The translations under genes were made by a program, and so were the position numbers. 33,169 bases of DNA from a virus. Each line of letters opens with the position of its first letter. The first letter of the stretch is position 1. Positions 21,806 to 32,520 of the stretch are shown here, piece by piece. Below the pieces are notes generated by a model. That model searched no databases and had not been told where the DNA came from. It saw only the letters and a list, made by a program, of their open reading frames with translations. The DNA is taken from IMG/VR virus record IMGVR_UViG_3300009155_002377, positions 1 through 33,169 of that record; one strand, 5' to 3'.

Positions 21806-21883
21806 GGGCCCTTAGCTCATGTTGGTTAGAGCAGTGGACTCATAATCCATTGGTGCCCAGTTCGACTCTGGGAGGGCCCACCA
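21806..21883 (+). tRNA. tRNA-Ile2 (CAU anticodon, probably lysidine-modified)
   Basis: 78 nt including an encoded CCA. The 7-bp acceptor stem GGGCCCT/AGGGCCC is perfect; the D arm AGCTC...GAGC, anticodon stem TGGA/TCCA with loop CTCATAA (anticodon CAT) and T-arm CCCAG-TTCGACT-CTGGG are all present. The overall sequence resembles E. coli tRNA-Ile2 (ileX), including the CTCATAA loop, so AUA decoding after TilS modification of C34 is favoured over elongator Met. It is probably transcribed from the promoter at 21173. Confidence 0.9.
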
Positions 21884-21889
21884 CAACAC

Positions 21890-21976
21890 GTTCGTGAACA
21901 GCGAACAACCCTAGCCGCAGTAGGGTCGATCCAGGAAGGAGAGTGCCGCAGCGGATCGCCAAACTGTGGCTTTTTT
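21890..21976 (+). ncRNA. Candidate structured RNA: three hairpins plus terminator
   Basis: Downstream of the tRNA are tandem perfect stems: GTTCG/CGAAC (21890-21906), ACCCTA/TAGGGT (21908-21926) and CGATCC/GGATCG (21927-21958), then a U-tract hairpin. GCCGCAG occurs in the loop of stem 2 (21914-21920) and again in the loop of stem 3 (21945-21951), which also exposes AGGAAGGAG. There is no ORF. It could be a small RNA processed from the tRNA transcript or a 3' stability element. Confidence 0.45.
21958..21976 (+). terminator. Rho-independent terminator after tRNA
   Basis: GCCA-AACTG-TGGC followed by TTTTTT. The stem is short (4 bp), but the U-tract is good and the next promoter begins 16 bp later. 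Confidence 0.55.
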
Positions 21977-21991
21977 GCACCAAAATAACGG

Positions 21992-22020
21992 TTGACATCG
22001 GGCCCAATCGGTGTTATACT
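21992..22020 (+). promoter_or_regulatory. sigma70-like early promoter
   Basis: TTGACA (21992-21997), 17 bp, TATACT (22015-22020). ACATCG and CGGTGT at the two ends of the spacer can pair (one G-U), a weaker version of the palindromes at 10401 and 23169. Confidence 0.85.
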
Positions 22021-22049
22021 ATATGCATAGTAAGAGATTGGAGCGAACA

Positions 22050-22373
22050 ATGTCACGTAAACCCAGAGTAGATCGTAATCATATCATATATGAGATCGTC
22101 ACACCCCAAGGGTCCTACATCGGCGTTACTGCCAAAACCGAATCAACAGTACTAAAGAGCCTGCGTAGCCGTGCTGCCAAGCACTTCTATCGTGCCAAAA
22201 CAGAAGCCAAAGATTGGCTGTTGTGCCAATACCTGCGTACACTGGACGACAAGCTGGCCATAGACATACGTGCCGTAGAAATGGTACGTGGTAAAGCGGC
22301 AGCACATCGCCGAGAAGTAGAACTGCGCAGACAGTTCAAACCCGCACTTAACACTGACACACGAGGAGATTGA
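22050..22373 (+). CDS. GIY-YIG-like small protein
   Basis: 107 aa from the ATG at 22050, which follows GGAGCGAACA; ATGs at 22025 and earlier are upstream of or too close to the start site. HIIYEIVTPQGSYIGVTAKTESTVLKSLRSRAAKHFYRA resembles the GIY-YIG core (IYEI..GSYIGVT) with following arginines, and EVELRRQFKPALNTDTRG resembles the catalytic-Glu/tail segment. It is probably a mini GIY-YIG nuclease or a degenerate DNA-binding relative. The next gene starts right after its stop. Confidence 0.65.
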   Translation: MSRKPRVDRNHIIYEIVTPQGSYIGVTAKTESTVLKSLRSRAAKHFYRAKTEAKDWLLCQYLRTLDDKLAIDIRAVEMVRGKAAAHRREVELRRQFKPALNTDTRGD

Positions 22374-22374
22374 C

Positions 22375-22764
22375 ATGCGCTATTATGACACACTGGCAGA
22401 ATACACGCGAGCAGGCTTTGACATCATCGTAGACAAGACCTGGGAAGACTTGCCCCTAGAGGACCTGTTCGACACCGGCCTAGACCCAGACACGGGCCTG
22501 CCCTACTACGATGTTCAGCAGATGGCACGTGACATTGACTCGGGCAAGCTGGACTACTTCATGCTCAGGGTCCGCGCCATGTACGAGGACGTGGAACTGG
22601 CTGTTAACTATGTAGGGGGCTTTGTCTACGAGGATGCTGCAGAAGTCTTGCGGGATGGAGTCGCTGAGGACATGATCAGTGAGACCATCGAGGACGCCAA
22701 AAAGCGAGTAACCCAGATACTTGAAGGGTTATCTAAAATACCGGTTGACAACGTGACAGTTTGA
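22375..22764 (+). CDS. Acidic hypothetical protein
   Basis: 129 aa, MRYYDTLAEYTRAGFDIIVDKTWEDLPLEDLFDTGLDPD..., strongly acidic with a C-terminal helix (SETIEDAKKRVTQILEGLSKI). Acidic small early phage proteins often mimic DNA or bind host enzymes; nothing specific is recognised. GAGGAGA precedes the ATG. Its last codons overlap the next promoter. Confidence 0.7.
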   Translation: MRYYDTLAEYTRAGFDIIVDKTWEDLPLEDLFDTGLDPDTGLPYYDVQQMARDIDSGKLDYFMLRVRAMYEDVELAVNYVGGFVYEDAAEVLRDGVAEDMISETIEDAKKRVTQILEGLSKIPVDNVTV

Positions 22765-22773: not shown

Positions 22774-22803
22774 ATACACTTACTTAACAACATGGAGCGA
22801 AGC

Positions 22804-23157
22804 ATGGAACAAGCACAGAGAGAGTATTTTGTACGTCGTCTTAACGAAATTGCACAGGCCAAGGTTGAGGCCAAGGCTGTAGCACTATTTGGTCCTACTG
22901 GCCGTCCGCAACAGCCTACATGGGGCATGGTGTTTGAAGGCATTGCGTCCGGAGAGATCACCCTTAAAGAGGAAAAGCGGGACTACACTGGTCCTTACCT
23001 TAACCCTACAGACGTTGAGTGGCCTGCTATGGAAGCAAAGTCTGCAGAGCTAGAGGCTTACAAGACTACAGTAGCACAAGAGCGCCAACGAGCTGAGGAC
23101 TCTGCTATGTTGGATGCAGATGCACAACAAGCCCTTACTGCTTTCCAGGGTATTTAA
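22804..23157 (+). CDS. Small hypothetical early protein
   Basis: 117 aa from the ATG at 22804, preceded by GGAGCGAA; the ATG at 22792 is part of that Shine-Dalgarno. MEQAQREYFVRRLNEIAQAKVEAKAVALFGPTGRPQQPTWGMVFEGIASGEITLKEE... is helical at both ends (AELEAYKTTVAQERQRAEDSAML). No family was recognised. Confidence 0.75.
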   Translation: MEQAQREYFVRRLNEIAQAKVEAKAVALFGPTGRPQQPTWGMVFEGIASGEITLKEEKRDYTGPYLNPTDVEWPAMEAKSAELEAYKTTVAQERQRAEDSAMLDADAQQALTAFQGI

Positions 23158-23194: not shown

Positions 23195-23228
23195 CTAGGC
23201 TTACACACACTTAATAGGAGCGACGACT

Positions 23229-23699
23229 ATGGGTACCAGAGCACTTACTTTTGTATACGATGGCGAAACGCCCATCATCAACATGTACCGTCAATACGAC
23301 GGCTACCCCAGCGGACACGGACAAGAGCTAGCGGAGTTCCTTACACAGGGCAAGCTGGTAAACGGTTTGAGTGGCAAGAACGAAACAGTATTCAACGGCA
23401 TGGGCTGCTTGGCAGCACAGATGATCGCTAACTTCAAACAGACCCCCGGCGGGTTCTACATCCACCCTGTAACAGACACTGAGTGCGGGCAGGACTACGA
23501 GTATCACGTCTACGAACGTGAGAATGAGCTCCGTGTACGTGTTACCAATCGCGGCTTCAACATGTTTGGGCTTACGATGGATGACACCAACGAGACTCTG
23601 TTCGACGGTAACGTGATCGAGTTCCTGGACTACTGCAACCCTGAGAAGGAACAGTTTGAAGTTGATCTTACAGAAGGCCAAGCTGTTGGCCGTGGCTGA
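23229..23699 (+). CDS. Conserved phage protein of unknown function
   Basis: 156 aa. MGTRALTFVYDGETPIINMYRQYDGYPSGHGQELAEFL resembles an uncharacterised family found in phages and bacteria, with a conserved QYDGYPSGHG loop and 'NGMGCLAAQMIANFK'. It has AGGAGCGACGACT before the ATG and its own palindromic promoter. It is a single-gene transcript unit. The function is unknown. Confidence 0.8.
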   Translation: MGTRALTFVYDGETPIINMYRQYDGYPSGHGQELAEFLTQGKLVNGLSGKNETVFNGMGCLAAQMIANFKQTPGGFYIHPVTDTECGQDYEYHVYERENELRVRVTNRGFNMFGLTMDDTNETLFDGNVIEFLDYCNPEKEQFEVDLTEGQAVGRG

Positions 23700-23752: not shown

Positions 23753-23785
23753 AGAGACTTACTAACAAACATTGGAGCGAAAACA

Positions 23786-24859
23786 ATGCCAGCAATTATC
23801 GAAATAGCAGAGGGTACTTACAAAGTTCGCGGACAAGACGTGTCTATGAGCGGTATCCGTTTTGAACTAGTAGAAGGTTTCAAAGAGGGTGTTAACGGTG
23901 GCTATGTTACTGTTGACGGCTCAACTGCTAACCCTAGTAGCTCAGGTATCCCTGATCGCAAGATCCGTATCAAATGCATTAGCGCACAGAGCTACGTGGT
24001 CGTGGCAGGGGACGTCAGTGCCTCACCCGTAGGAGAAAAGAGTTTGGAACAGATCAAAGTGTCAGACGCTGTTGTAGCGCACGAAACGGATGAAGAGATC
24101 ATCGAGCGTACTCGCAACCGTTTTGCCGTGTTAACAGAGATGACTAAGGCTGTGAAAGCTGGTACTGTTCGTGCTATGATTGTCACAGGGCCCCCAGGCG
24201 TGGGCAAGAGCTTTGGTGTTGAAGAAGTACTAAGCAAAGACGATCTGTTTGACGTAATGGGTCAGCGTAAACCCAAGTATGAAGTTGTCAAGGGCGCAAT
24301 GTCCGCGATTGGCTTGTACAGCAAGCTCTATCAATACAGCGAGAAGGGCAATGTTATCGTGTTCGATGACTGTGACTCAGTGCTGTTAGATGACTTGTCG
24401 CTGAACATTCTTAAAGCGGCTTTGGACAGTAGCAAGAAGCGTACCATTTCGTGGAACACGGACAGTCGTGTACTGCGAAGCGAAGGAGTGCCAGATCGCT
24501 TCGAATTCAAAGCAGGTGCTATCTTTATCACCAACATCAAGTTTGAGAATGTGCGTAGTAAGAAACTGCAGGATCACTTGGCGGCACTAGAGTCACGCTG
24601 TCACTATATCGACTTGCAAATGGACACAGATCGTGAGAAGGTGCTCCGTATCAAGCAGATCGTTGAAGACGGCATGTTGGACTCATACGAGCTTGAGGAT
24701 GTACAGCGCGATGAAGTTGTAGACTACATTGTAGAGAATCGTGCTAAGATGCGTGAGCTCAGCTTGCGTACGGTACTGAAGGTAGCAGACTTGCGTAAGA
24801 GCTTCAGTGCTAATTGGAAATCTATGGCAGAAGTAACTGTTATGAAGAGAGGTGTGTAA
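23786..24859 (+). CDS. AAA+ ATPase
   Basis: 357 aa from the ATG at 23786 after GGAGCGAAAACA. An N-terminal beta-rich region (1-95) precedes the AAA core: Walker A GPPGVGKS (135-142), Walker B VIVFDDCDS (190-198) and a sensor-1-like GAIFITNIKF. Its closest recognisable resemblance is to the AAA proteins of T4-like marine phages. It may remodel protein or DNA complexes. Its stop overlaps the next start (TAATG), so it is coupled to a zinc-finger-like protein and a membrane protein. Confidence 0.85.
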   Translation: MPAIIEIAEGTYKVRGQDVSMSGIRFELVEGFKEGVNGGYVTVDGSTANPSSSGIPDRKIRIKCISAQSYVVVAGDVSASPVGEKSLEQIKVSDAVVAHETDEEIIERTRNRFAVLTEMTKAVKAGTVRAMIVTGPPGVGKSFGVEEVLSKDDLFDVMGQRKPKYEVVKGAMSAIGLYSKLYQYSEKGNVIVFDDCDSVLLDDLSLNILKAALDSSKKRTISWNTDSRVLRSEGVPDRFEFKAGAIFITNIKFENVRSKKLQDHLAALESRCHYIDLQMDTDREKVLRIKQIVEDGMLDSYELEDVQRDEVVDYIVENRAKMRELSLRTVLKVADLRKSFSANWKSMAEVTVMKRGV

Positions 24860-25400: not shown

Positions 25401-25682
25401 ATGAAACGTATTTCTAAAAATACAAAAACTTTCAAAGTGTTTAATGCACTTTACAATGGCGCTTCTCTAACACAGAGCCAAGCCACTAAGCAATTCGGCG
25501 TAGGTAACTTGGCCGCTGAAGCTTCACGTATCCGTCAACATGGTTACGCTGTTTATGCCAACAACCGCAAGGCTGGCAATGGTGTGACTGTTACCGAATA
25601 CGTAATGGGCAAGCCATCACGCGAAATCGTTGCACTTGGTTACAAGGCTAAGGCAGCTGGTTTCACTTTAGAAACAATCTAA
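25401..25682 (+). CDS. Small winged-helix-like DNA-binding protein
   Basis: 93 aa from the ATG at 25401 after AAAGGAAAAAGGCAA. KTFKVFNALYNGASLTQSQATKQFGVGNLAAEASRIRQHGYAVYANNRKAGNGVTVTEYVMGKPS is a helix-turn-helix with a beta-wing, closely resembling small conserved proteins of marine T4-like phages. It is a likely regulator. Its 3'UTR carries TTCGCTCCCG and a strong terminator. Confidence 0.8.
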   Translation: MKRISKNTKTFKVFNALYNGASLTQSQATKQFGVGNLAAEASRIRQHGYAVYANNRKAGNGVTVTEYVMGKPSREIVALGYKAKAAGFTLETI

Positions 25683-25709
25683 AGTAACCGTTTCAAACAG
25701 ACAAGCCGA

Positions 25710-25719
25710 TTCGCTCCCG
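25710..25719 (+). promoter_or_regulatory. TTCGCTCCCG motif in 3'UTR (complement of early Shine-Dalgarno)
   Basis: TTCGCTCC is the exact complement of GGAGCGAA, the Shine-Dalgarno of five early genes. CTCC at 25714-25717 can also pair locally with GGAG (25721-25724), so it may be partly masked. The same decamer recurs at 32465-32474. Confidence 0.45.
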
Positions 25720-25733
25720 GGGAGTCTTTTGAG

Positions 25734-25761
25734 GGTGTTGTAGAAATACAACACCTTTTTT
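25734..25761 (+). terminator. Strong rho-independent terminator
   Basis: A perfect 9-bp stem GGTGTTGTA-GAAA-TACAACACC followed by TTTTTT, with a GAAA tetraloop. It ends the HTH gene transcript. Confidence 0.93.
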
Positions 25762-25780
25762 CTTGGCCGGCACTCCCTGG

Positions 25781-25809
25781 TTGACAAATTGGATACATAG
25801 TGTTATAAT
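25781..25809 (+). promoter_or_regulatory. sigma70-like early promoter
   Basis: TTGACA (25781-25786), 17 bp ending TAGTGT, TATAAT (25804-25809). Confidence 0.88.
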
Positions 25810-25838
25810 AGACACATACTAAGAGATTAGGAGCGAGA

Positions 25839-26468
25839 ATGCAATTCACAGCAGAACAGGTATGGGGTTTAGCCGTAGCCGCAGATCGTATCAACGGTGG
25901 CTACTTCAAAGACGCTCAGTTCGCAGAAGATATGGTAACAGTCCTGCGAACAGCCAACAAGACCCTAGTCAAAGGTTGGCTACGCGAGGGCAACTTCTCA
26001 GCTGCAACAGCAGCAGACATCACCCAGGGACAAGAGATCCGTCATTACTTCAACGGCCTGCTGCTGAAGGAACTGTCCGGGAAGATCAACGACTTCGAGC
26101 GTCAGGCACTGCGTATCGCCCAAAAGGACGAGTTCACAGGGCGCGACATGCTGGACTTTGCCATCATCAGCTGCTTGCCAGCTGCTATGCTGCGAGAAGA
26201 AAGCCGTAAGGAGCTAGACAGCGAGATCCGTAGCTCCACCCAACTGAGTGCTGCTGTAGGAGATCGCGTCCAGGGAGAGATCGAAGTGATCAAGAGCTTC
26301 TACAGTAAGGACTACAACAAGTTCCGTATCACTGCCAAGCTAGGGGATTCGTTCGTGGACTTCTGGTTCGGAACAGCGTTAGAGGGCCGTGTGGGAATCA
26401 AGGGCAAAGTAAAAGCCCAGCGTGGCAATAATACAACACAATTAAACTTTGTGAAAACTACCGGTTGA
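25839..26468 (+). CDS. Hypothetical early protein
   Basis: 209 aa, MQFTAEQVWGLAVAADRINGGYFKDAQFAED..., after AGGAGCGAGA. The N-terminal 150 residues are helical; the C-terminal 60 form a small beta domain (DRVQGEIEVIKSFYSKDYNKFRITAKLGDSFVDFWFGTALEGRVGIKGKVKAQ) resembling an OB-like fold. It may bind nucleic acid. Its own promoter and the promoter after it bracket a single-gene unit. Confidence 0.78.
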   Translation: MQFTAEQVWGLAVAADRINGGYFKDAQFAEDMVTVLRTANKTLVKGWLREGNFSAATAADITQGQEIRHYFNGLLLKELSGKINDFERQALRIAQKDEFTGRDMLDFAIISCLPAAMLREESRKELDSEIRSSTQLSAAVGDRVQGEIEVIKSFYSKDYNKFRITAKLGDSFVDFWFGTALEGRVGIKGKVKAQRGNNTTQLNFVKTTG

Positions 26469-26493
26469 CAGCAAAGCAATTTGGTGTTATACT
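26465..26493 (+). promoter_or_regulatory. sigma70-like early promoter
   Basis: TTGACA (26465-26470) overlapping the previous stop, 17 bp ending TTTGGTGT, TATACT (26488-26493). Confidence 0.87.
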
Positions 26494-26545
26494 TATGATA
26501 CTGAGAAAGTAATTGTTTAACCCGTAAACTTAAAGAGGTCTTAAA

Positions 26546-27631
26546 ATGGCAAAAAACACAGATCAAAGCATTCGTCTAGTTGGCCCAAAAGCCGCTAAGA
26601 AAGCAATCCGCAAAGCACTAACCACACGCCGTCCTGTGTTCCTTTGGGGCCCTCCAGGCATTGGCAAGAGTGATATCGTCAAACAGATTGGCGATGACGC
26701 AGGACGCGAAGTCGTTGACGTTCGACTAGCCCTGTGGGAACCTACAGACATTAAAGGTATTCCTTATTACAACAGTGACATGGGCAAGATGGTGTGGGCT
26801 CCTCCAGCAGAACTGCCTACAGACCCAGAGTCTACTGCAATCATCTTCTTGGATGAATTGAACTCTGCTCCTCCGGCTGTTCAAGCCGCGGCATATCAGT
26901 TGGTGCTTAATCGTCGAGTTGGCACATACAGTTTGCCTAAGGGTGTTGACATCATCGCGGCAGGTAACCGCGAAGGTGACCGTGGCGTGACATACCGTAT
27001 GCCTAGCCCACTGGCTAACCGCTTCATCCACTTGGAAGCCAAAGTAGACTTTGACGACTTCCAGGACTGGGCTACCCTTAACAAGGTGCATCCAGAGGTT
27101 GTGGGTTATGTAGGCTTCGCCAAGCAGGACTTGTATGACTTTGACCCTAAGGGTTCTTCAAAGGCATTTGCAACTCCACGCTCTTGGGTGTTCGTTAGCG
27201 ATTTGCTCAAAGATGACGACACTGATCAGGATACCCTGCACAACTTGATCGCTGGTGCGATTGGTGATGGTTTGAGCGTTAAGTTTATGGCTCACCGCAA
27301 GATTGCAGGTAAACTGCCTAAGGCAGAGGACATCCTCGACGGTAAGGTCAAGGACCTGCAGATCAAAGAAGTGTCAGCGATGTATTCATTGACAGTCTCT
27401 TTGTGCTATGAGTTGAAGGACCGTGCAGAGAAGAAAGCCAAAGGTTGGGATGCTATGGCTGACAAATTCTTCCGCTACATGATGGATAATTTCCCAACTG
27501 AGTTGGTTGTGATGGGTGCTAAGACAGCACTTACCAACTATGACTTGCCACTGGACGCAACTAAGATGGAGTCGTTTAGCGAGTTCCACAAGCGTTTTGG
27601 TAAGTATGTTTTGACTGCTATGGAGAATTAA
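26546..27631 (+). CDS. MoxR-like AAA+ ATPase
   Basis: 361 aa. Walker A GPPGIGKS (35-42), Walker B AIIFLDELNSAP (98-109), the sensor N141 in IIAAGNREGDRG and R159 in SPLANRF are the features of the MoxR/AAA_5 group. MoxR ATPases pair with VWA-domain proteins and act as chaperones inserting metals or remodelling complexes; a VWA gene follows after a terminator-promoter gap. AAAGAGG lies 8 nt before the ATG. Confidence 0.9.
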   Translation: MAKNTDQSIRLVGPKAAKKAIRKALTTRRPVFLWGPPGIGKSDIVKQIGDDAGREVVDVRLALWEPTDIKGIPYYNSDMGKMVWAPPAELPTDPESTAIIFLDELNSAPPAVQAAAYQLVLNRRVGTYSLPKGVDIIAAGNREGDRGVTYRMPSPLANRFIHLEAKVDFDDFQDWATLNKVHPEVVGYVGFAKQDLYDFDPKGSSKAFATPRSWVFVSDLLKDDDTDQDTLHNLIAGAIGDGLSVKFMAHRKIAGKLPKAEDILDGKVKDLQIKEVSAMYSLTVSLCYELKDRAEKKAKGWDAMADKFFRYMMDNFPTELVVMGAKTALTNYDLPLDATKMESFSEFHKRFGKYVLTAMEN

Positions 27632-27646
27632 GACCTCTAACATAGC

Positions 27647-27688
27647 ACGGGCGGGGGGCTTCTCAGGGCTTGCCCGTCCACCTTTTTT
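27647..27688 (+). terminator. Probable terminator after MoxR gene
   Basis: ACGGGC (27647-27652) pairs with GCCCGT (27672-27677) around a G-rich loop, and TTTTTT follows at 27683-27688. The stem-to-U distance is 5 nt, longer than ideal. Confidence 0.5.
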
Positions 27689-27690
27689 GG

Positions 27691-27719
27691 TTGACAGATG
27701 TGTAGAACGATGCTATAAT
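27691..27719 (+). promoter_or_regulatory. sigma70-like early promoter
   Basis: TTGACA (27691-27696), 17 bp ending ACGATGC, TATAAT (27714-27719). Confidence 0.88.
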
Positions 27720-27744
27720 ATACACATACTAAGGAGAGCGAACA

Positions 27745-28962
27745 ATGAATGATCCAATCGTAGAAAAACTAACAACTGCCCGTATCGGCTTATTGCTCAA
27801 AGCACCGTTCTTTGGCAACATGGCAACCCGTATGCGTTTAGTCCAAGCAGACGACTGGTGCCCTACTGCGGCAACTAACGGTCGTGACTTCTATTACAAT
27901 ACAGAGTTCGTTAAGAAGCTCAGCACAAAGAAACTAGAGTTCCTCTTTGGGCATGAGATATGTCACTGCATCTTTGATCACTTTGGTCGTGTTGGATCAC
28001 GCGATCGTCAGCTCAGCAACATAGCACAAGACTACGCTGTCAATCAGATCCTTGTAGACGAACGCATTGGTGAGAAGATCACTGAAGTTAAGATCTGTTT
28101 AGATAACAAATATCGCGGCTTGGCTTGGGAAGAGATCTACGATCAATTGTATGAGAAAGCAGAAAAGATCTCTATGCCACAACTGCTTCAGCAACTGGGC
28201 GACTTGTTGGACGAGCACATTAACGAAGAAGAAGGTGCCGGTGCTGGCGACAAGGAAGGCAAAGACGGCAAAGGTAGCGGCGGTAAGCCTAGCCTTACTA
28301 AAGAAGAAGCACAGGCTATCCGTGACGAGATCAAACAGGCTATGGTGCAAAGTGCCGCGGCGGCTGGTGCTGGCAAAGTTCCTGCAGGAATCCAGCGTAT
28401 GATCAAAGACATGACAGAGCCTAAGATGGATTGGCGTCAATTGGTTCGTCAAGAGATCCAGAGCATTGTGCGTAATGACTTCTCCTTCCAGCGTTTCAAT
28501 CGTAAGAGTGCTCACTGTGGCGCAATCCTTCCAGGCATGAAGGAAGCAACTACAATTGACGTAGGCATTGGTATTGATATGTCAGGTAGTATTGGCGAAG
28601 AGGATGCTTCAACCTTCTTAGGTGAGATCAAAGGCATTATGGATCAATACGAAGACTTCAAGATCAACTTGTGGTGCTTTGACACAGCCATTTACAATCA
28701 TCAAGAGATCACACATGACAACAGTGAAGACTTGATGGACTATGAACCTCAGGGTGGTGGTGGCACAGACTTTGAAGCCAATTGGGAGTTTATGAAAGAG
28801 AACGGCATTACTCCTAAGAAGTTCATTATGTTCACAGACGGCTACCCATGTGGTAGTTGGGGTGACGAGGACTACTGCGATACAATCTTTATCGTTAAAG
28901 GTAACACAGAAGCCAAAGCACCGTTCGGCGAAACTGTTATCTACGAGAAAGAAGTGGCTTAA
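27745..28962 (+). CDS. VWA-like/metallopeptidase-like protein (DUF2201 type), MoxR partner
   Basis: 405 aa. The N-terminal part carries HEICH (70-74), an HExxH zinc motif, within LEFLFGHEICHCIFDHFGR. A Gly/Lys/Glu linker (about 160-185) follows. The C-terminal VWA-like domain has the MIDAS DMSGS (278-282), the conserved Thr in GGGGTDF (337-343) and MFTDGYP (362-368). DUF2201-type proteins pair with MoxR ATPases. This gene directly follows the MoxR gene, so the two probably form one module. The substrate is unknown. Confidence 0.88.
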   Translation: MNDPIVEKLTTARIGLLLKAPFFGNMATRMRLVQADDWCPTAATNGRDFYYNTEFVKKLSTKKLEFLFGHEICHCIFDHFGRVGSRDRQLSNIAQDYAVNQILVDERIGEKITEVKICLDNKYRGLAWEEIYDQLYEKAEKISMPQLLQQLGDLLDEHINEEEGAGAGDKEGKDGKGSGGKPSLTKEEAQAIRDEIKQAMVQSAAAAGAGKVPAGIQRMIKDMTEPKMDWRQLVRQEIQSIVRNDFSFQRFNRKSAHCGAILPGMKEATTIDVGIGIDMSGSIGEEDASTFLGEIKGIMDQYEDFKINLWCFDTAIYNHQEITHDNSEDLMDYEPQGGGGTDFEANWEFMKENGITPKKFIMFTDGYPCGSWGDEDYCDTIFIVKGNTEAKAPFGETVIYEKEVA

Positions 28963-29138
28963 TGTTCTACGGGTGGCTGTTGGCGGAAAACTTTACTGTC
29001 CTAGGATACAGCCTTAATACAGAGAAAACCATGCGCGGTGCCAACTCTGTGCCCACCTATACAGGAGTGCCAGGGGGTGTGGCTAAAAAGCCACACTCTG
29101 CTATTAGGCCCCGCTGCTACACGTATGCGTATATCTAG
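28962..29138 (+). CDS. Possible 58-aa ORF after VWA gene
   Basis: MFYGWLLAENFTVLGYSLNTEK... begins in a TAATG overlap with the VWA stop, which favours translational coupling. However, the frame runs through a hairpin and a GGCCCCGCTGC repeat, and the C-terminus looks random. It may be a real micro-protein or noncoding spacer. Confidence 0.3.
   Translation: MFYGWLLAENFTVLGYSLNTEKTMRGANSVPTYTGVPGGVAKKPHSAIRPRCYTYAYI
29076..29097 (+). other. Hairpin GTGTGGCT/AGCCACAC
   Basis: Perfect 8-bp stem with loop AAAA (29077-29096). No U-tract follows, so it is more likely an RNA 3'-end stabiliser than a terminator. It lies just upstream of repeat copy 5. Confidence 0.5.
29104..29117 (+). repeat. GGCCCCGCTGC element, copy 5
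   Basis: TTAGGCCCCGCTGC, about 8 kb from the other four copies. It again lies in a module boundary just before a promoter. Confidence 0.7.
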
Positions 29139-29141
29139 GTC

Positions 29142-29170
29142 TTGACATCTAGATAGATTGGTGCTATAAT
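29142..29170 (+). promoter_or_regulatory. sigma70-like early promoter
   Basis: TTGACA (29142-29147), 17 bp ending ATTGGTGC, TATAAT (29165-29170). Confidence 0.88.
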
Positions 29171-29200
29171 ACACTTACACTAACAGAGATAGGAGCGGTT

Positions 29201-29347
29201 ATGGAAATGATCTTAGTATTCTTAGCAGGTATGATTGTCATGGACGTTATGTGGGCTTGGCGTCTTGGCATTCCTCAAACGATGTACGCGATGTGGAAGT
29301 ACAAACGAGCCCTTCGTAATCAACCTCAACCTAACTTCGAGGAGTAA
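29201..29347 (+). CDS. Small membrane protein
   Basis: 48 aa, MEMILVFLAGMIVMDVMWAWRLGIPQTMYAMWKYKRALRNQPQPNFEE. One N-terminal transmembrane helix is followed by a basic amphipathic stretch. AGGAGCGGTT precedes the ATG. It is the first of four tightly packed small genes. Confidence 0.7.
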   Translation: MEMILVFLAGMIVMDVMWAWRLGIPQTMYAMWKYKRALRNQPQPNFEE

Positions 29348-29349
29348 TC

Positions 29350-29478
29350 ATGAGAGCATTTATCTTTGGTACAATCTTTGGGCTTGTGTTAGCAACTGTG
29401 GGGTTCTCTGGAATCGCACGTATGCTAGACAAGGGTGTTGACACTGTTAAAGAGAAATCTGTGGAGATTGCGCGATGA
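29350..29478 (+). CDS. Small membrane protein
   Basis: 42 aa, MRAFIFGTIFGLVLATVGFSGIARMLDKGVDTVKEKSVEIAR. It has one transmembrane helix with Gly spacing and a charged tail, resembling tiny conserved membrane proteins of T4-like cyanophages. It starts 2 nt after the previous stop; GAGGAG lies inside the end of that gene. Its stop overlaps the next start. Confidence 0.7.
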   Translation: MRAFIFGTIFGLVLATVGFSGIARMLDKGVDTVKEKSVEIAR

Positions 29479-29651
29479 GCATGTTGAAAGAAGTAGCATA
29501 CGATATCGAGCAACTGTATATCGAAGGTGAGCATCCTACATCTATCGCTCGCAACTTGGGCATTCCATTGAGCTTGGTATACGATTGGCTCCAAGACACA
29601 CATGTCGACGAGGGCGATGAATACAGCCCACACGGGACTATAAATAGTTGA
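29475..29651 (+). CDS. Small helix-turn-helix protein
   Basis: 58 aa. MLKEVAYDIEQLYIEGEHPTSIARNLGIPLSLVYDWLQD is a Homeodomain-like/resolvase-type helix-turn-helix. It is likely a DNA-binding regulator or adaptor. ATGA overlap with the previous gene. A TATAAATA octamer lies in its last codons. Confidence 0.75.
   Translation: MSMLKEVAYDIEQLYIEGEHPTSIARNLGIPLSLVYDWLQDTHVDEGDEYSPHGTINS
29639..29646 (+). promoter_or_regulatory. Late-promoter-like TATAAATA before gene at 29653
   Basis: A perfect TATAAATA lies 6 nt before the ATG at 29653. It lies inside the end of an early-type gene, so it may be a second, late promoter for 29653 or chance. Confidence 0.4.
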
Positions 29652-29652
29652 T

Positions 29653-29979
29653 ATGAGCAAACTGGAATATCTAGCACGTCCGTTAGTGGCATTTGATCCT
29701 AGCAATAAGGATCACCGTAGATATTATGCAGAGTTTCTAGAATACGGCGGATGGGGCATGAGCCCTGTCCGTTTTATCTGCCCAGAGGATCATGGTATGG
29801 ATCTACCTACTATGATCCAGCATAGCTTGATCCGCTACTACGTTGAGCGAGAGTTCGGGGGTGGCAAACTGGCACGAGCACGTTCCGACGTCATGAAGGA
29901 AACAGCAGACGCGATGTATAAGGAAGCGGGCAGGCTACGCAAAGAAGCTTCAGCTCTACTAAAACCCAGACGTTCGTAG
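29653..29979 (+). CDS. Conserved T4-like phage hypothetical protein
   Basis: 108 aa. MSKLEYLARPLVAFDPSNKDHRRYYAEFLEYGGWGMSPVRFICPEDHGMDLPTMIQHSLIRYYVEREF resembles a small protein conserved in T4-like marine phages, here with a longer basic C-terminal helix (GRLRKEASALLKPRRS). The function is unknown. It starts one base after the previous stop; its 3' end forms a terminator. Confidence 0.8.
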   Translation: MSKLEYLARPLVAFDPSNKDHRRYYAEFLEYGGWGMSPVRFICPEDHGMDLPTMIQHSLIRYYVEREFGGGKLARARSDVMKETADAMYKEAGRLRKEASALLKPRRS

Positions 29980-29987
29980 GGTCTTTT
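29964..29987 (+). terminator. Terminator overlapping a stop codon
   Basis: ACCC-AG-ACG/CGT-A-GGGT then CTTTT. The stem includes the TAG stop of the upstream gene. It shares CGTAGGGTCTTTT with the terminator at 32492. Confidence 0.6.
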
Positions 29988-29996
29988 CCAAACCGA

Positions 29997-30025
29997 TTGA
30001 CAACTTGACATTTTGGTGCTATACT
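29997..30025 (+). promoter_or_regulatory. sigma70-like early promoter
   Basis: TTGACA (29997-30002), 17 bp ending TTTGGTGC, TATACT (30020-30025). Confidence 0.85.
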
Positions 30026-30051
30026 ATGGGTATAGACAATAAGGAATGTTC

Positions 30052-30288
30052 ATGCCGAAATTCAAATTCGAACTATACCGAAGAAGCATCACGTGTGAAA
30101 CCTATTGGGTCGAAGCTGACACCGAAGAAGAAGCCATAGAGAAAGCCGGCAACTGCGAAGCTGAGGGCCCGGATCTAGAGTTCCTCGATTGGTACGATGA
30201 CAACTACGTGGTGGAAAGCAAGGAATGTATTGACCCTTTATACGTCATGGTTAAAGACTACAAATCGGTTGACAGTTTGGATGTTTGA
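30052..30288 (+). CDS. Small acidic hypothetical protein
   Basis: 78 aa from the ATG at 30052; the ATG at 30046 abuts AAGGA too closely. MPKFKFELYRRSITCETYWVEADTEEEAIEKAGNCEAEGPDLEFLDW resembles the small 'xxYWVEADTEEEAIEKA' beta-alpha fold common in phage proteins. The next promoter overlaps its 3' end. Confidence 0.75.
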   Translation: MPKFKFELYRRSITCETYWVEADTEEEAIEKAGNCEAEGPDLEFLDWYDDNYVVESKECIDPLYVMVKDYKSVDSLDV

Positions 30289-30297
30289 TGTTATACT
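30269..30297 (+). promoter_or_regulatory. sigma70-like early promoter
   Basis: TTGACA (30269-30274), 17 bp ending TTTGATGT, TATACT (30292-30297); the -35 and spacer lie within the coding end of the gene before it. Confidence 0.87.
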
Positions 30298-30326
30298 ATA
30301 GGTATAGTGAATAGTTAGGAGCGAAG

Positions 30327-30575
30327 ATGATTGAAGAACAAGAAAGAGTTTTAAAGATCCTTAAGGGATGGCAGTGGGACCGTAAGCAACACGGTTGCCT
30401 GTTTGATCGTGGCAGTGCCGATTCATACTACGGTCGATCACGTGATCCGCACTATGGTGGTGTGGGTGGCAACAGTGGTGCCCGTGTTGAGTCGCTGACT
30501 GCTGAAGAAGTAGCAGAGTATCAAGCAGGATACACCTACAACGAACTCTACGGCGATCGTAAGGATTACTCCTGA
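30327..30575 (+). CDS. Conserved small phage protein
   Basis: 82 aa after GGAGCGAAG. DRGSADSYYGRSRDPHYGG...LTAEEVAEYQAGYTYNELYGDRKDY is a conserved pattern seen in short proteins of T4-like marine phages: a Tyr/Arg-rich loop then a helix. The function is unknown. Its stop overlaps the SWIM gene start (TGATG). Confidence 0.8.
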   Translation: MIEEQERVLKILKGWQWDRKQHGCLFDRGSADSYYGRSRDPHYGGVGGNSGARVESLTAEEVAEYQAGYTYNELYGDRKDYS

Positions 30576-30892
30576 TGGAAGCGTTGAGAGAAACCACTGG
30601 GGGACAGTTTCACCCTCATGTCTATCTCCTAGATGGGACAACACTGGTAGCCTACATTAAGGCTGGCACACGGAGTCCCATCTACTTCAAGAAGGGAATC
30701 AAAGGCTTCGACAAGCGAGGCAGACAGTTTGAAGCAGTTAAACCAAATCCATTTAAAGAAAGTAAATCAAATGCAATCACAATCACTGGTTCTAAGGGTC
30801 AAGTCTACACAGTCGACCCAGACGCAAAAACCTGCTCTTGCCCAGGATACACTTATCGAGGTACCTGCAAACACTTGGCAGAACATGGTTGA
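30575..30892 (+). CDS. SWIM zinc-finger protein
   Basis: 105 aa. The C-terminal SWIM domain VYTVDPDAKTCSCPGYTYRGTCKHLAEH has the ligands C87, C89, C98 and H100 (CxCx8CxH). SWIM domains bind DNA or proteins. The N-terminal 60 residues are a separate beta-rich region. It is coupled by TGATG to the previous gene. Confidence 0.85.
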   Translation: MEALRETTGGQFHPHVYLLDGTTLVAYIKAGTRSPIYFKKGIKGFDKRGRQFEAVKPNPFKESKSNAITITGSKGQVYTVDPDAKTCSCPGYTYRGTCKHLAEHG

Positions 30893-30917
30893 CTTTTTGT
30901 CCAAATGACTGTATAAT
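30889..30917 (+). promoter_or_regulatory. sigma70-like early promoter
   Basis: TTGACT (30889-30894), 17 bp ending AATGACTG, TATAAT (30912-30917); the -35 overlaps the SWIM gene stop. Confidence 0.83.
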
Positions 30918-30947
30918 AAACATATTAACAACACATAGGAGCGAACT

Positions 30948-31577
30948 ATGCCAAATTGGTGCAACAACAACTTAACACTGCAACACGAAGACCCTGCAAT
31001 GATCAAGCGAGCCGCTGAGGCCCTTGAGCGTGGAGAGTTCCTGAGTGAGTTTATTCCAGTGCCGAAGGATCTGCAGATAGTCGCGGGATCCGTTGGTGAT
31101 CCTGTTGAGCAGGCAGAACTCGAGCGTAAGACTGCTGAGAATGTAGAGAAATACGGTTATGGCAACTGGTATGACTATCAGGTCAACGAGTGGGGCACCA
31201 AGTGGGATGTGGGTGCTGATAGCACAACTGATGTGCATCCGGATGGCAAGATGCTACACACCTACTTCGACTCAGCATGGAGCCCTCCGATCGCGGCCTA
31301 CGAGAAGTTGACTGCAATGGGCTTTACTGTAGGCGCAATGTATTACGAACCCGGCATGGCCTACTGCGGTGTTTGGGAAGAAGGCAATGATGAATACTAC
31401 AACCTAGAGGGTATGAATTCATCGCAGGTAGAACAGGACTTGCCCGTAGAACTTGACGAGGCTTTTGGTATCTCAGAATGCATGGCTGAATACGAGGCTG
31501 AGCAAGAAGAAGAGCTCACTGAGTGGATCAAAGATGGCGTTGAGCAGAACAAGAAGTTGGGTTTGGTTTCAGAATGA
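30948..31577 (+). CDS. Api92-like (DUF1281-type) protein
   Basis: 209 aa starting MPNWCNNNLTLQHEDPAMIKRAAEALERGEFLSEFIPVPKDLQ, the characteristic head of Api92/YubB-like ferredoxin-fold proteins. KWDVGADSTT... and FDSAWSPPIAAYEKLTAMG are the matching core motifs. These proteins are widespread on phages and plasmids with no settled function. The C-terminus (EAEQEEELTEWIKDGVEQNKKLG) is acidic and helical. AGGAGCGAACT precedes the ATG. Confidence 0.87.
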   Translation: MPNWCNNNLTLQHEDPAMIKRAAEALERGEFLSEFIPVPKDLQIVAGSVGDPVEQAELERKTAENVEKYGYGNWYDYQVNEWGTKWDVGADSTTDVHPDGKMLHTYFDSAWSPPIAAYEKLTAMGFTVGAMYYEPGMAYCGVWEEGNDEYYNLEGMNSSQVEQDLPVELDEAFGISECMAEYEAEQEEELTEWIKDGVEQNKKLGLVSE

Positions 31578-31885
31578 GGCAGACTCTAAAGAAGCTGGAT
31601 CGTAGGTTCAATGGCTGGGGCCATTGGACCCACAGAACGGATCCCGAAGGGTTCAAGACGGCCACAGACTGGCAAATGAACTTCTTAGAGTATCGCAACT
31701 GGATGTGGGCTAACTACGGTCCGGGCTGTAGAGAATCAGAAGCAACTGCGTTTGTGGCTCTAGGTCGTGAAGTGCCGATTTGGGGTTGGGATGAGTATGG
31801 TTCGATCTATGCCCGTGATGTAGCAATGACCACACTGCTGTTGGCAAAGGATCGGTTTACCAAGAGGTATGTTAACAATGACTAG
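31574..31885 (+). CDS. Hypothetical early protein
   Basis: 103 aa, MRQTLKKLDRRFNGWGHWTHRTDPEGFKTATDWQMNFLEYRNWMWANYGPG..., rich in Trp and Arg. No family was recognised. ATGA overlap with the Api92-like gene. Confidence 0.75.
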   Translation: MRQTLKKLDRRFNGWGHWTHRTDPEGFKTATDWQMNFLEYRNWMWANYGPGCRESEATAFVALGREVPIWGWDEYGSIYARDVAMTTLLLAKDRFTKRYVNND

Positions 31886-32066
31886 AGAATATGTATACAC
31901 GTTTAGGGTTACCTGTGCGGGAGAGGGTACACCCAATTTGACTCGAGTCGAGGAACTGATTGACTTGAGTATGCAGGATCTGGTCTATGACGACGAGTTC
32001 ATCGTTGCCCTGGACGAGAAGGAGTCGGTAACCATTCAAGTGATACCAATGAATTTGGACAAATGA
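31878..32066 (+). CDS. Small hypothetical protein
   Basis: 62 aa from the ATG at 31878 (MTREYVYTFRVTCAGEGTPNLTRVEELIDLSMQDLVYDDEFIVAL), giving better spacing from AAGAGG than the ATG at 31869. A compact beta-alpha-beta fold is likely. It overlaps the previous gene by 8 bp. Confidence 0.65.
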   Translation: MTREYVYTFRVTCAGEGTPNLTRVEELIDLSMQDLVYDDEFIVALDEKESVTIQVIPMNLDK

Positions 32067-32070
32067 ATGG

Positions 32071-32099
32071 TTGACGATTTGGTAGTTTGATGCTACAAT
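32071..32099 (+). promoter_or_regulatory. sigma70-like early promoter
   Basis: TTGACG (32071-32076), 17 bp ending TTTGATGC, TACAAT (32094-32099). Confidence 0.8.
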
Positions 32100-32154
32100 A
32101 ATAACATGCTGCTAGTGCAGCTAACTTAAACACACACAGAAAGAGGTAACACAA

Positions 32155-32460
32155 ATGGCAACTGAAAAGAAATTTAGCGTAGCAGGCGTTAGTACACTTA
32201 GCGGTAAAACTAAGATCCGTTTCGCCAACGATGCAATGCGCATCAAGATCCTGGCCAAGAACGGTCACCAGGACGTGGATCTCATTGATCTTCCACGTGA
32301 AATGACTAAGGGCGAGATTGCTCAACACCTTGTTGACGTTGATTACGCCAAAGGCCGCAAAGCTGTTGCAGACGCAATTGCTTACGTAGCCAAGAAAAAC
32401 CCCGAGGCTGCGCCCGTGGTTAAACAAGCAGCTCCAGTGAAGGCTGCTGTAACAGCCTAA
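32155..32460 (+). CDS. Conserved-looking small phage protein
   Basis: 101 aa, MATEKKFSVAGVSTLSGKTKIRFANDAMRIKILAKNGHQDVDLIDLPREMTKGEIAQHLVDVDYAKGRKAVADAIAYVAKKNPEAAPVVKQ, ending in an Ala/Val/Pro/Lys tail. It has a basic beta-alpha N-terminal domain and resembles small proteins of marine T4-like phages; the function is unknown. AAGAGG precedes the ATG. Its 3'UTR has TTCGCTCCCG and a strong terminator. Confidence 0.78.
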   Translation: MATEKKFSVAGVSTLSGKTKIRFANDAMRIKILAKNGHQDVDLIDLPREMTKGEIAQHLVDVDYAKGRKAVADAIAYVAKKNPEAAPVVKQAAPVKAAVTA

Positions 32461-32464
32461 ACGG

Positions 32465-32474
32465 TTCGCTCCCG
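32465..32474 (+). promoter_or_regulatory. TTCGCTCCCG motif in 3'UTR, second copy
   Basis: TTCG-CTCC-CGAA forms a 4-bp stem that presents CTCC in a tetraloop, the mirror image of the early Shine-Dalgarno GGAG. It is placed between the stop codon (32460) and the terminator. Confidence 0.5.
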
Positions 32475-32491
32475 AATCTAGGCTTTGAAAG

Positions 32492-32520
32492 GCCCTACAT
32501 TACGTAGGGTCTTTTTTTTT
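32492..32520 (+). terminator. Strong rho-independent terminator
   Basis: CCCTAC-ATTAC-GTAGGG then TCTTTTTTTTT (9 T). Confidence 0.92.

Follow-up and report, generated by a model that had tools for sequence, protein, structure and literature searches.

The alpha-r14/NfeR1 'cuckoo' small RNAs (sRNAs) of alpha-proteobacteria form hairpins with divergent stems that expose the same ultraconserved anti-Shine-Dalgarno loop, and these redundant motifs silence many mRNAs through occlusion of the ribosome-binding site (PMC10746234). In phages P1 and P7, the c4 antisense RNA, whose complementary stretches probably lie in loops, blocks the ribosome-binding site of a phage mRNA (PMC12197685). The phage T4 endoribonuclease RegB inactivates many early mRNAs, its own included, at Shine-Dalgarno sequences with GGAG, a particular 3' extension being preferred (PMC3014915). 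An RNA from the 3' untranslated region (3'UTR) of PHIKZ298 in the jumbo phage PhiKZ is described as abundant, ~100 nt long and assumed to be cut from the mRNA; it has two stem-loops, the second possibly being the terminator (PMC8545117). The element described here is a hairpin found in two 3'UTRs of a viral sequence, the complete IMG/VR record IMGVR_UViG_3300009155_002377 (33,169 bases, probably a genome fragment), which was analysed at its full length and is referred to as the window. The loop of this hairpin carries a seed, TTCGCTCC, complementary to a tag made up of the Shine-Dalgarno sequence and adjoining bases in the leaders of many genes of one block. It is likely that 3'UTR-derived antisense RNAs pair with these tagged early leaders, block ribosome binding and turn the set down. 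Loop and tag would thereby form an RNA switch for a whole viral gene block, probably an off-switch.

Both the phage hairpins and alpha-r14/NfeR1 have a loop complementary to the Shine-Dalgarno region of many mRNAs and stems that diverge. The bacterial sRNA differs in having an independent gene, a generic CCUCCUCCC motif and host metabolic targets, whereas the phage seeds lie in 3'UTRs, extend beyond the Shine-Dalgarno sequence to read a lineage-specific tag and have the phage's own genes as putative targets. The CCUCCUCCC motif is not found in the phage loops, which are TTCGCTCC or ATGTTACTCCCTACC, and the two show no sequence match. The c4 RNA (RF01695) is likewise a phage RNA acting at a ribosome-binding site, but it controls one gene (ant), whereas the phage seed described here is located in the 3'UTRs of unrelated genes and in most genomes has about 9-19 leaders opposite it. 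RF01695 exhibits no match in the window or at the elements of three related loci (L388-L390). Rfam analysis returned nothing at the latter elements, and in the window only a tRNA reached the gathering score, with a weak suhB/mmgR hit (22.9 bits; cut-off 41). RegB is a protein nuclease, and its functional counterpart here, the reader of GGAG plus an extension, would be an RNA loop. The PHIKZ298 RNA, likened to the present hairpins by description and not by sequence, has no targets assigned in the available portion of the source and serves as a precedent for accumulation. No description of a system like these tags and 3'UTR seeds was found in the open-access literature, subscription papers lying outside the search. 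The chemistry is rated as known; what that literature does not describe is a tag used throughout a phage and read, in a code specific to the lineage, by 3'UTR seeds that can relocate.

The region from 22 to 33 kb of the window is a run of small genes on the + strand, most of them preceded by a near-perfect sigma-70 promoter; starts and promoters are predictions from simple rules. Pfam and PHROG analysis identified in this block an AAA ATPase (23786-24859), a MoxR-type ATPase (26546-27631) and a VWA/metallopeptidase-like protein (27745-28962). By MoxR protein, the named phages closest to the window belong to the PA5oct group of Pseudomonas phages (51% identity). The genes of the block are presumed to be early from promoter type and gene content. 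The seed TTCGCTCC occurs seven times in the window against a chance expectation of 0.54, a number reached in 0/100 shuffles; two copies lie on the + strand (25710 and 32465) and five on the - strand, at the leaders at 22040, 22794, 23774, 30318 and 30938. An initial annotation of the window had reported the motif at these sites, with the 3'UTR copies between a stop codon and a terminator, and both observations were reproduced here.

The first 3'UTR belongs to P0001 (25401-25682, + strand), which encodes a small winged-helix protein (Pfam HTH_39, PF14090, E=3.7e-7), and the second to P0002 (32155-32460, + strand), a small gene without a match in Pfam or PHROG. Both + strand copies read TTCGCTCCCG and are flanked by the stop codon (25680-25682; 32458-32460) and a rho-independent terminator-like hairpin (25731-25758; 32487-32515; + strand). 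These two hairpins are the strongest terminator matches of the region, and they would end two candidate RNAs, both of which show a terminator and U-tract in their sequence. The first seed (25710-25717) is predicted to lie in a hairpin at 25693-25732 with the outer stem TCAAA.AGAC/GTCTTTTGA, the inner stem CCG/CGG and the 9-base loop ATTCGCTCC, in which the seed bases are unpaired with a probability of 0.89-0.98. A hairpin of this type is present in almost all homologous 3'UTRs. The second seed (32465-32472) is assigned by predicted fold and homologous copies to a hairpin at 32455-32483, whose outer stem GCCTA/TAGGC is built partly from the final codon and a portion of the stop codon. In copies of this P0002 type, a ribosome that reaches the end of the gene would be expected to melt the outer stem, which takes in the final codons and the stop.

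Nine promoter-led GGAG leaders are located between 22040 and 30938 on the + strand, and all nine contain GAGCG, which is found at none of the GGAG sites that lack a promoter. Five of them read GGAGCGAA: 22040-22047 (gene 22050-22373; promoter 11/12 at 21992-22020; seed duplex -13.7/-17.2 kcal/mol), 22794-22801 (gene 22804-23157; 12/12; -14.1/-16.7), 23774-23781 (AAA ATPase gene 23786-24859, phrog_1250; 11/12; -13.9/-14.6), 30318-30325 (gene 30327-30575; 11/12; -14.1) and 30938-30945 (gene 30948-31577; 11/12; -13.9/-18.3). The leaders at 23217-23223 (gene 23229-23699; 12/12; -13.1/-13.6) and 25830-25836 (gene 25839-26468; 12/12; -13.4/-13.8) read GGAGCGA. The leader at 27733-27742 of the VWA/metallopeptidase-like gene reads GGAGAGCGAA and pairs with a bulge (12/12; -13.8/-17.3), and that at 29192-29197 of a small gene (29201-29347) reads GGAGCG within GGAGCGG (12/12; -12.1). 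Seven of these leaders had been proposed as targets earlier and all seven hold; the set was incomplete, those at 27733 and 29192 being the additions, and of the two 7-base matches the one at 25830 was placed correctly while the other starts at 23217 rather than 23218. Taken together, the two seeds form predicted duplexes of -12 to -18 kcal/mol with the nine tagged leaders compared with -3 to -10 kcal/mol at seven untagged promoter-led starts, energies that ignore ribosome competition. The duplex spans the GGAG core and adjoining bases in all tagged leaders.

The tag was followed through related viral contigs, from which the viral 15-mer matches behind L166, L178, L194 and L218 were left out as they looked like unrelated phages. 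Exact 15-mer matches in bacterial genomes fall in widely scattered phyla, with ~480 chance matches expected in the collection. Among 940 promoter-led GGAG leaders from 229 loci, GGAG is followed by CGA in 55% and by AGC (GGAGAGCG) in 10%, compared with CGA at 4.6% of 1,417 promoterless GGAG sites; a stricter set gives 55% for promoter-led sites and 7% for the others. The information profile of the leaders peaks at A-GGAG-CG(AA) and is low elsewhere. The 16S tail presumably matches only GGAG here, so pairing with it does not explain CGAA. The tag is also gene-specific, as GAGCG is present in 65/68 distinct homologous leaders of the AAA gene, 39/43 of the VWA gene and 56/63 of gene 25839, and in 0/84 of P0001, 0/43 of P0002 and 0/67 of MoxR. 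The corresponding counts for the genes starting at 23229, 29201, 30327 and 30948 are 6/6, 14/20, 23/33 and 23/44. Matches to TTCGCTCC cluster within 10-14 kb in several large genomes, such as at 94,472-105,218 of 147,567 bases in G011 and at 20,888-34,216 of 198,723 bases in G003. As a separate observation, MoxR (26530-26545) and P0002 (32140-32154) have in common another leader type with AAAGAGGT near the start and no GAGCG in homologs, which suggests a second class of genes that would be exempt from the switch.

The 3'UTR hairpin is conserved in ~100 related viral contigs. In homologs of P0001 and P0002, (A)TTCGCTC(C) stands between the stop codon and the terminator with differing flanks, and the conserved fold consists of an outer stem that varies, an inner stem that is short and, exposing TTCGCTC(C), an open loop of 7 to 9 bases. 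Across 41 distinct inner hairpins, two-sided changes are found at all four pairs, and in 18 pair cells both partners differ, compared with 3.4 in shuffles (0/500). The covariation score of the hairpin is 0.376 against 0.182 (0/500 shuffles), and slid structures score far lower. The closing position of the inner hairpin is mostly A.C, with G-C or A-U in ten copies. The outer arms exhibit a mean pairing of -13.4 kcal/mol, compared with -8.3 kcal/mol (standard deviation 0.4) when the arms are permuted among 53 thinned copies. The loop reads TTCGCTC in 125 of 127 distinct copies, and both the variant TTCGCTT (one of the remaining two) and TTCGCTCT (L008/L017) still pair through G-U wobble. In 19 large regions, each of the 32 elements has the orientation of the leaders, with no copy on the opposite strand.

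Besides the lineage of the window (lineage 1), lineage 2 (L388-L391 and about a dozen further loci) features tandem seed hairpins after the last gene of the block, which encodes an AAA ATPase where the gene was checked and has a tagged leader of its own. In most cases the terminator is formed by the second hairpin, whose unrelated stems enclose an invariant CCGATTCGCTCCCGG, and L388 contains a third seed copy with the stem GCTAG/CTAGC. The presence of the seed after another gene with its loop and position kept indicates that the seed moves between genes.

Lineage 3 consists of relatives retrieved with the PA5oct MoxR protein (L414-L426), and its leaders, GGAGTAAC and GGTAGGAG, differ from those of lineages 1 and 2. 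GGAGTAA is present in 28/55 promoter-led leaders (51%) compared with 14/270 others (5%). The MoxR 3'UTR in this lineage is composed of a long variable stem with the invariant loop (G)CCTACCTATGTTACTCCCTACCTA, given in short as ATGTTACTCCCTACC, followed by a terminator; the 24-mer CCTACCTATGTTACTCCCTACCTA occurs exactly in 33 stretches of the viral collection with stems that vary. In the loop ATGTTACTCC(CTACC), ATGTTACTCC complements GGAGTAACAT, the leaders being GGAGTAACAT or GGTAGGAG; ACTCCCTACC pairs with GGTAGGAGT with one base bulged, and GGAGTAACAT and GGTAGGAGT are the two leader forms of the lineage. When loops and leaders were swapped, pairing at or below -12 kcal/mol was reached by the lineage 1 loop on 71% of own-lineage and 2-3% of lineage 3 leaders, and by the lineage 3 loop on 73% of own-lineage and 9% of lineage 1/2 leaders. 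Shuffled loops reach the own-lineage mean in 1/500 and 0/500 cases, and on the leaders of the other lineage the z values are an unremarkable -1.4 and -0.4. Co-variation of seed and Shine-Dalgarno sequence in relatives had been set beforehand as a check, and it was found, the loops of lineages 1/2 and of lineage 3 each fitting their own leaders only. This lineage-specific match and the compensatory stem changes around an invariant loop support the earlier proposal of a single seed facing many early genes.

The TTCGCTCC hairpin and GGAGCG leaders were not found in the 99 kb of PA5oct read, where no tag is dominant, and the Burkholderia phage FLC6, a match, contains no seed. In lineages 4 (L411, L460-L538) and 5 (L413, L571-L649) no single leader extension dominates and no hairpin that matches lies within ~10 kb of MoxR, absence from partial genomes being weak evidence; the candidate loops inspected in lineage 4 lie mostly within conserved coding sequence. 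PA5oct also carries annotations of 'putative lncRNA' based on RNA-seq (L408:31117-31735; L409:8263-8498 and 21951-22401), which offer RNA data for a relative and for which no relation to the seed is claimed.

Direct RNA-RNA pairing at the ribosome-binding site best accounts for the tag, the hairpin, the covariation of stems around a fixed loop, the strand rule and the lineage-specific co-change of loop and tag. For trans-acting antisense sRNAs that block Shine-Dalgarno sequences in general, a conserved single-stranded seed complementary to several initiation regions is expected along with co-variation of seed and target, and both were found here, the latter with one code change. In the proposed mechanism, two phage transcripts would end in a seed hairpin and an intrinsic terminator, fused in lineage 2, and the hairpin would present an invariant loop complementary to GGAGCGA[A], the extended Shine-Dalgarno tag that precedes most of the promoter-led genes in the early block. 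The 3'UTR RNA would accumulate as a processed sRNA or as an intact mRNA end, a step for which the PhiKZ 3'UTR RNA is a precedent (PMC8545117). It would then pair in trans with all tagged leaders and exclude the 30S subunit, and as transcripts with the seed accumulate the whole tagged set would fall jointly. Repression is the direction suggested by where the duplex lies and by the precedents of NfeR1 and c4 (PMC10746234, PMC12197685). P0001 and P0002 of lineage 1 lack the tag and would escape the switch, and the seed-bearing AAA or MoxR gene of lineages 2 and 3, with its tagged or partly tagged leader, would be under negative feedback.

Several points weigh against this mechanism. The pairing of loop and leader is strongly supported, and RNA release, action in trans, repression and timing are what we infer beyond it. 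The relatives are related sequences and not independent, which also applies to the leader counts. About one third of the promoter-led GGAG leaders in lineages 1 and 2 have neither CGA nor AGCG, and one clear code change was found, that from lineages 1/2 to lineage 3. In L078-L080 the edge of the loop is altered (GTCGCTCC) and the leaders are not correspondingly changed. The minimum-energy fold predicted for copy 2 in the window pairs TTCG and leaves only CTCC exposed. This TTCG-CTCC-CGAA hairpin had been put forward in the initial annotation, and it holds as the predicted minimum fold and not as the general form, since relatives keep the 7- to 9-base loop exposing all of TTCGCTC(C).

The pairing could also be real and take place in cis or between intact mRNAs, with the seed acting on its own leader or, after read-through, on the next gene and with no small RNA involved. 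This reading has a small chance of being correct and draws on the tagged leader of the lineage 2 AAA gene that bears the tandem seeds, on GGAGTAA leaders of some seed-bearing MoxR genes in lineage 3, and on the location of the window seed at 25710, 120 bases upstream of the tagged leader at 25830. The seed genes of the window lineage are themselves untagged (0/84, 0/43), as is the gene following the second seed (32581), and with one to three seeds for about 9-19 tagged leaders in most genomes the majority of targets would be reachable only in trans. A somewhat less probable reading keeps the pairing without repression: the RNA would protect the tagged mRNAs, or these would act like a sponge and keep it from some other target, for example a host mRNA. 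Direction is not readable from sequence, and the target search covered phage sequences. Against this, the duplex always lies over the GGAG core and its neighbours, as it does in the repressive pairings of NfeR1 and c4 (PMC10746234, PMC12197685), and no host target is needed to account for the tagged phage leaders, which number dozens per lineage.

Readings in which RNA pairing is irrelevant fare much worse. As double-stranded DNA, GGAGCGAA and TTCGCTCC are the same site in both orientations, and the winged-helix protein P0001 (HTH_39) is encoded next to one copy and might bind it. The hairpin copies are in one orientation in 32/32 cases, the covariation of the stems is that of RNA helices, the site is built into a terminator loop with unrelated stems in lineage 2, and in lineage 3 site and loop change together; a DNA-binding site was rejected on strand bias, stem covariation and terminator fusion, and we consider it very improbable. 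Equally little probability is given to a protein-binding RNA or mimic of the tRNA T-arm whose match to the leaders arose by chance. TTCGCTC resembles TTCRANY and, as a point for this reading, fits the T-loop at 6/7 positions; the T-loop A58 is C in all copies, and the loop of lineage 3 is an unrelated one that likewise matches its own leaders, on which grounds the mimic was rejected. A chance match was rejected on the seven copies against 0.54 expected and on the swap and loop-shuffle tests. Recent copying of promoter-leader cassettes was also rejected, as it leaves the complementary hairpins unexplained.

The textbook case of early-gene shut-off in a large phage is T4, with a nuclease that recognises GGAG sites. 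If antisense RNAs derived from 3'UTRs turn down the tagged genes, one to three hairpins would address ten or so genes via a common tag, and would do so across a wide range of aquatic phages, with RNA apparently doing a job similar to that of the GGAG nuclease of T4. The tag lets the target set be read from sequence, and the co-change of loop and tag yields clean predictions. We regard as doubtful the further idea that loop and tag pairs constitute an RNA address code, by which a phage, through a seed RNA acting in trans, silences the tagged early genes of co-infecting phages with the same code and those with other codes, such as lineage 3, escape. If true, this would be RNA heteroimmunity driving code change, like P1/P7 c4 but across a whole early regulon.

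Further features were observed around the seed-bearing 3'UTRs. In L139, L142, L143, L130, L148 and L155, the 3'UTRs of P0001 homologs lack the seed hairpin and contain before the terminator a perfect palindrome, GGTTAGGCCTAACC or GGATAGGCCTATCC, with arms that co-vary around AGGCCT, possibly a kissing hairpin or an operator. The motif GGCACTCC, usually CCGGCACTCC, is conserved at 25769-25776 and in ~50 related contexts between the terminator following P0001 and the next promoter, and is possibly a DNA operator. A second (T)TCGCTCC or CGCTCC directly follows the stop codon without a clear stem at L393:2207 (reverse complement) and in L014, L053 and L112, and may represent an additional unstructured seed. 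In the gene block, the product of 27745-28962 is labelled 'HNH endonuclease' in PHROG 1314, a label that looks wrong as Pfam identifies a putative metallopeptidase and a VWA-like domain (DUF2201_N, DUF2201). A tRNA-Met (CAT) gene at 21806-21883 is located directly upstream of the tagged block and resembles the tRNA-Met genes of Acinetobacter phages.

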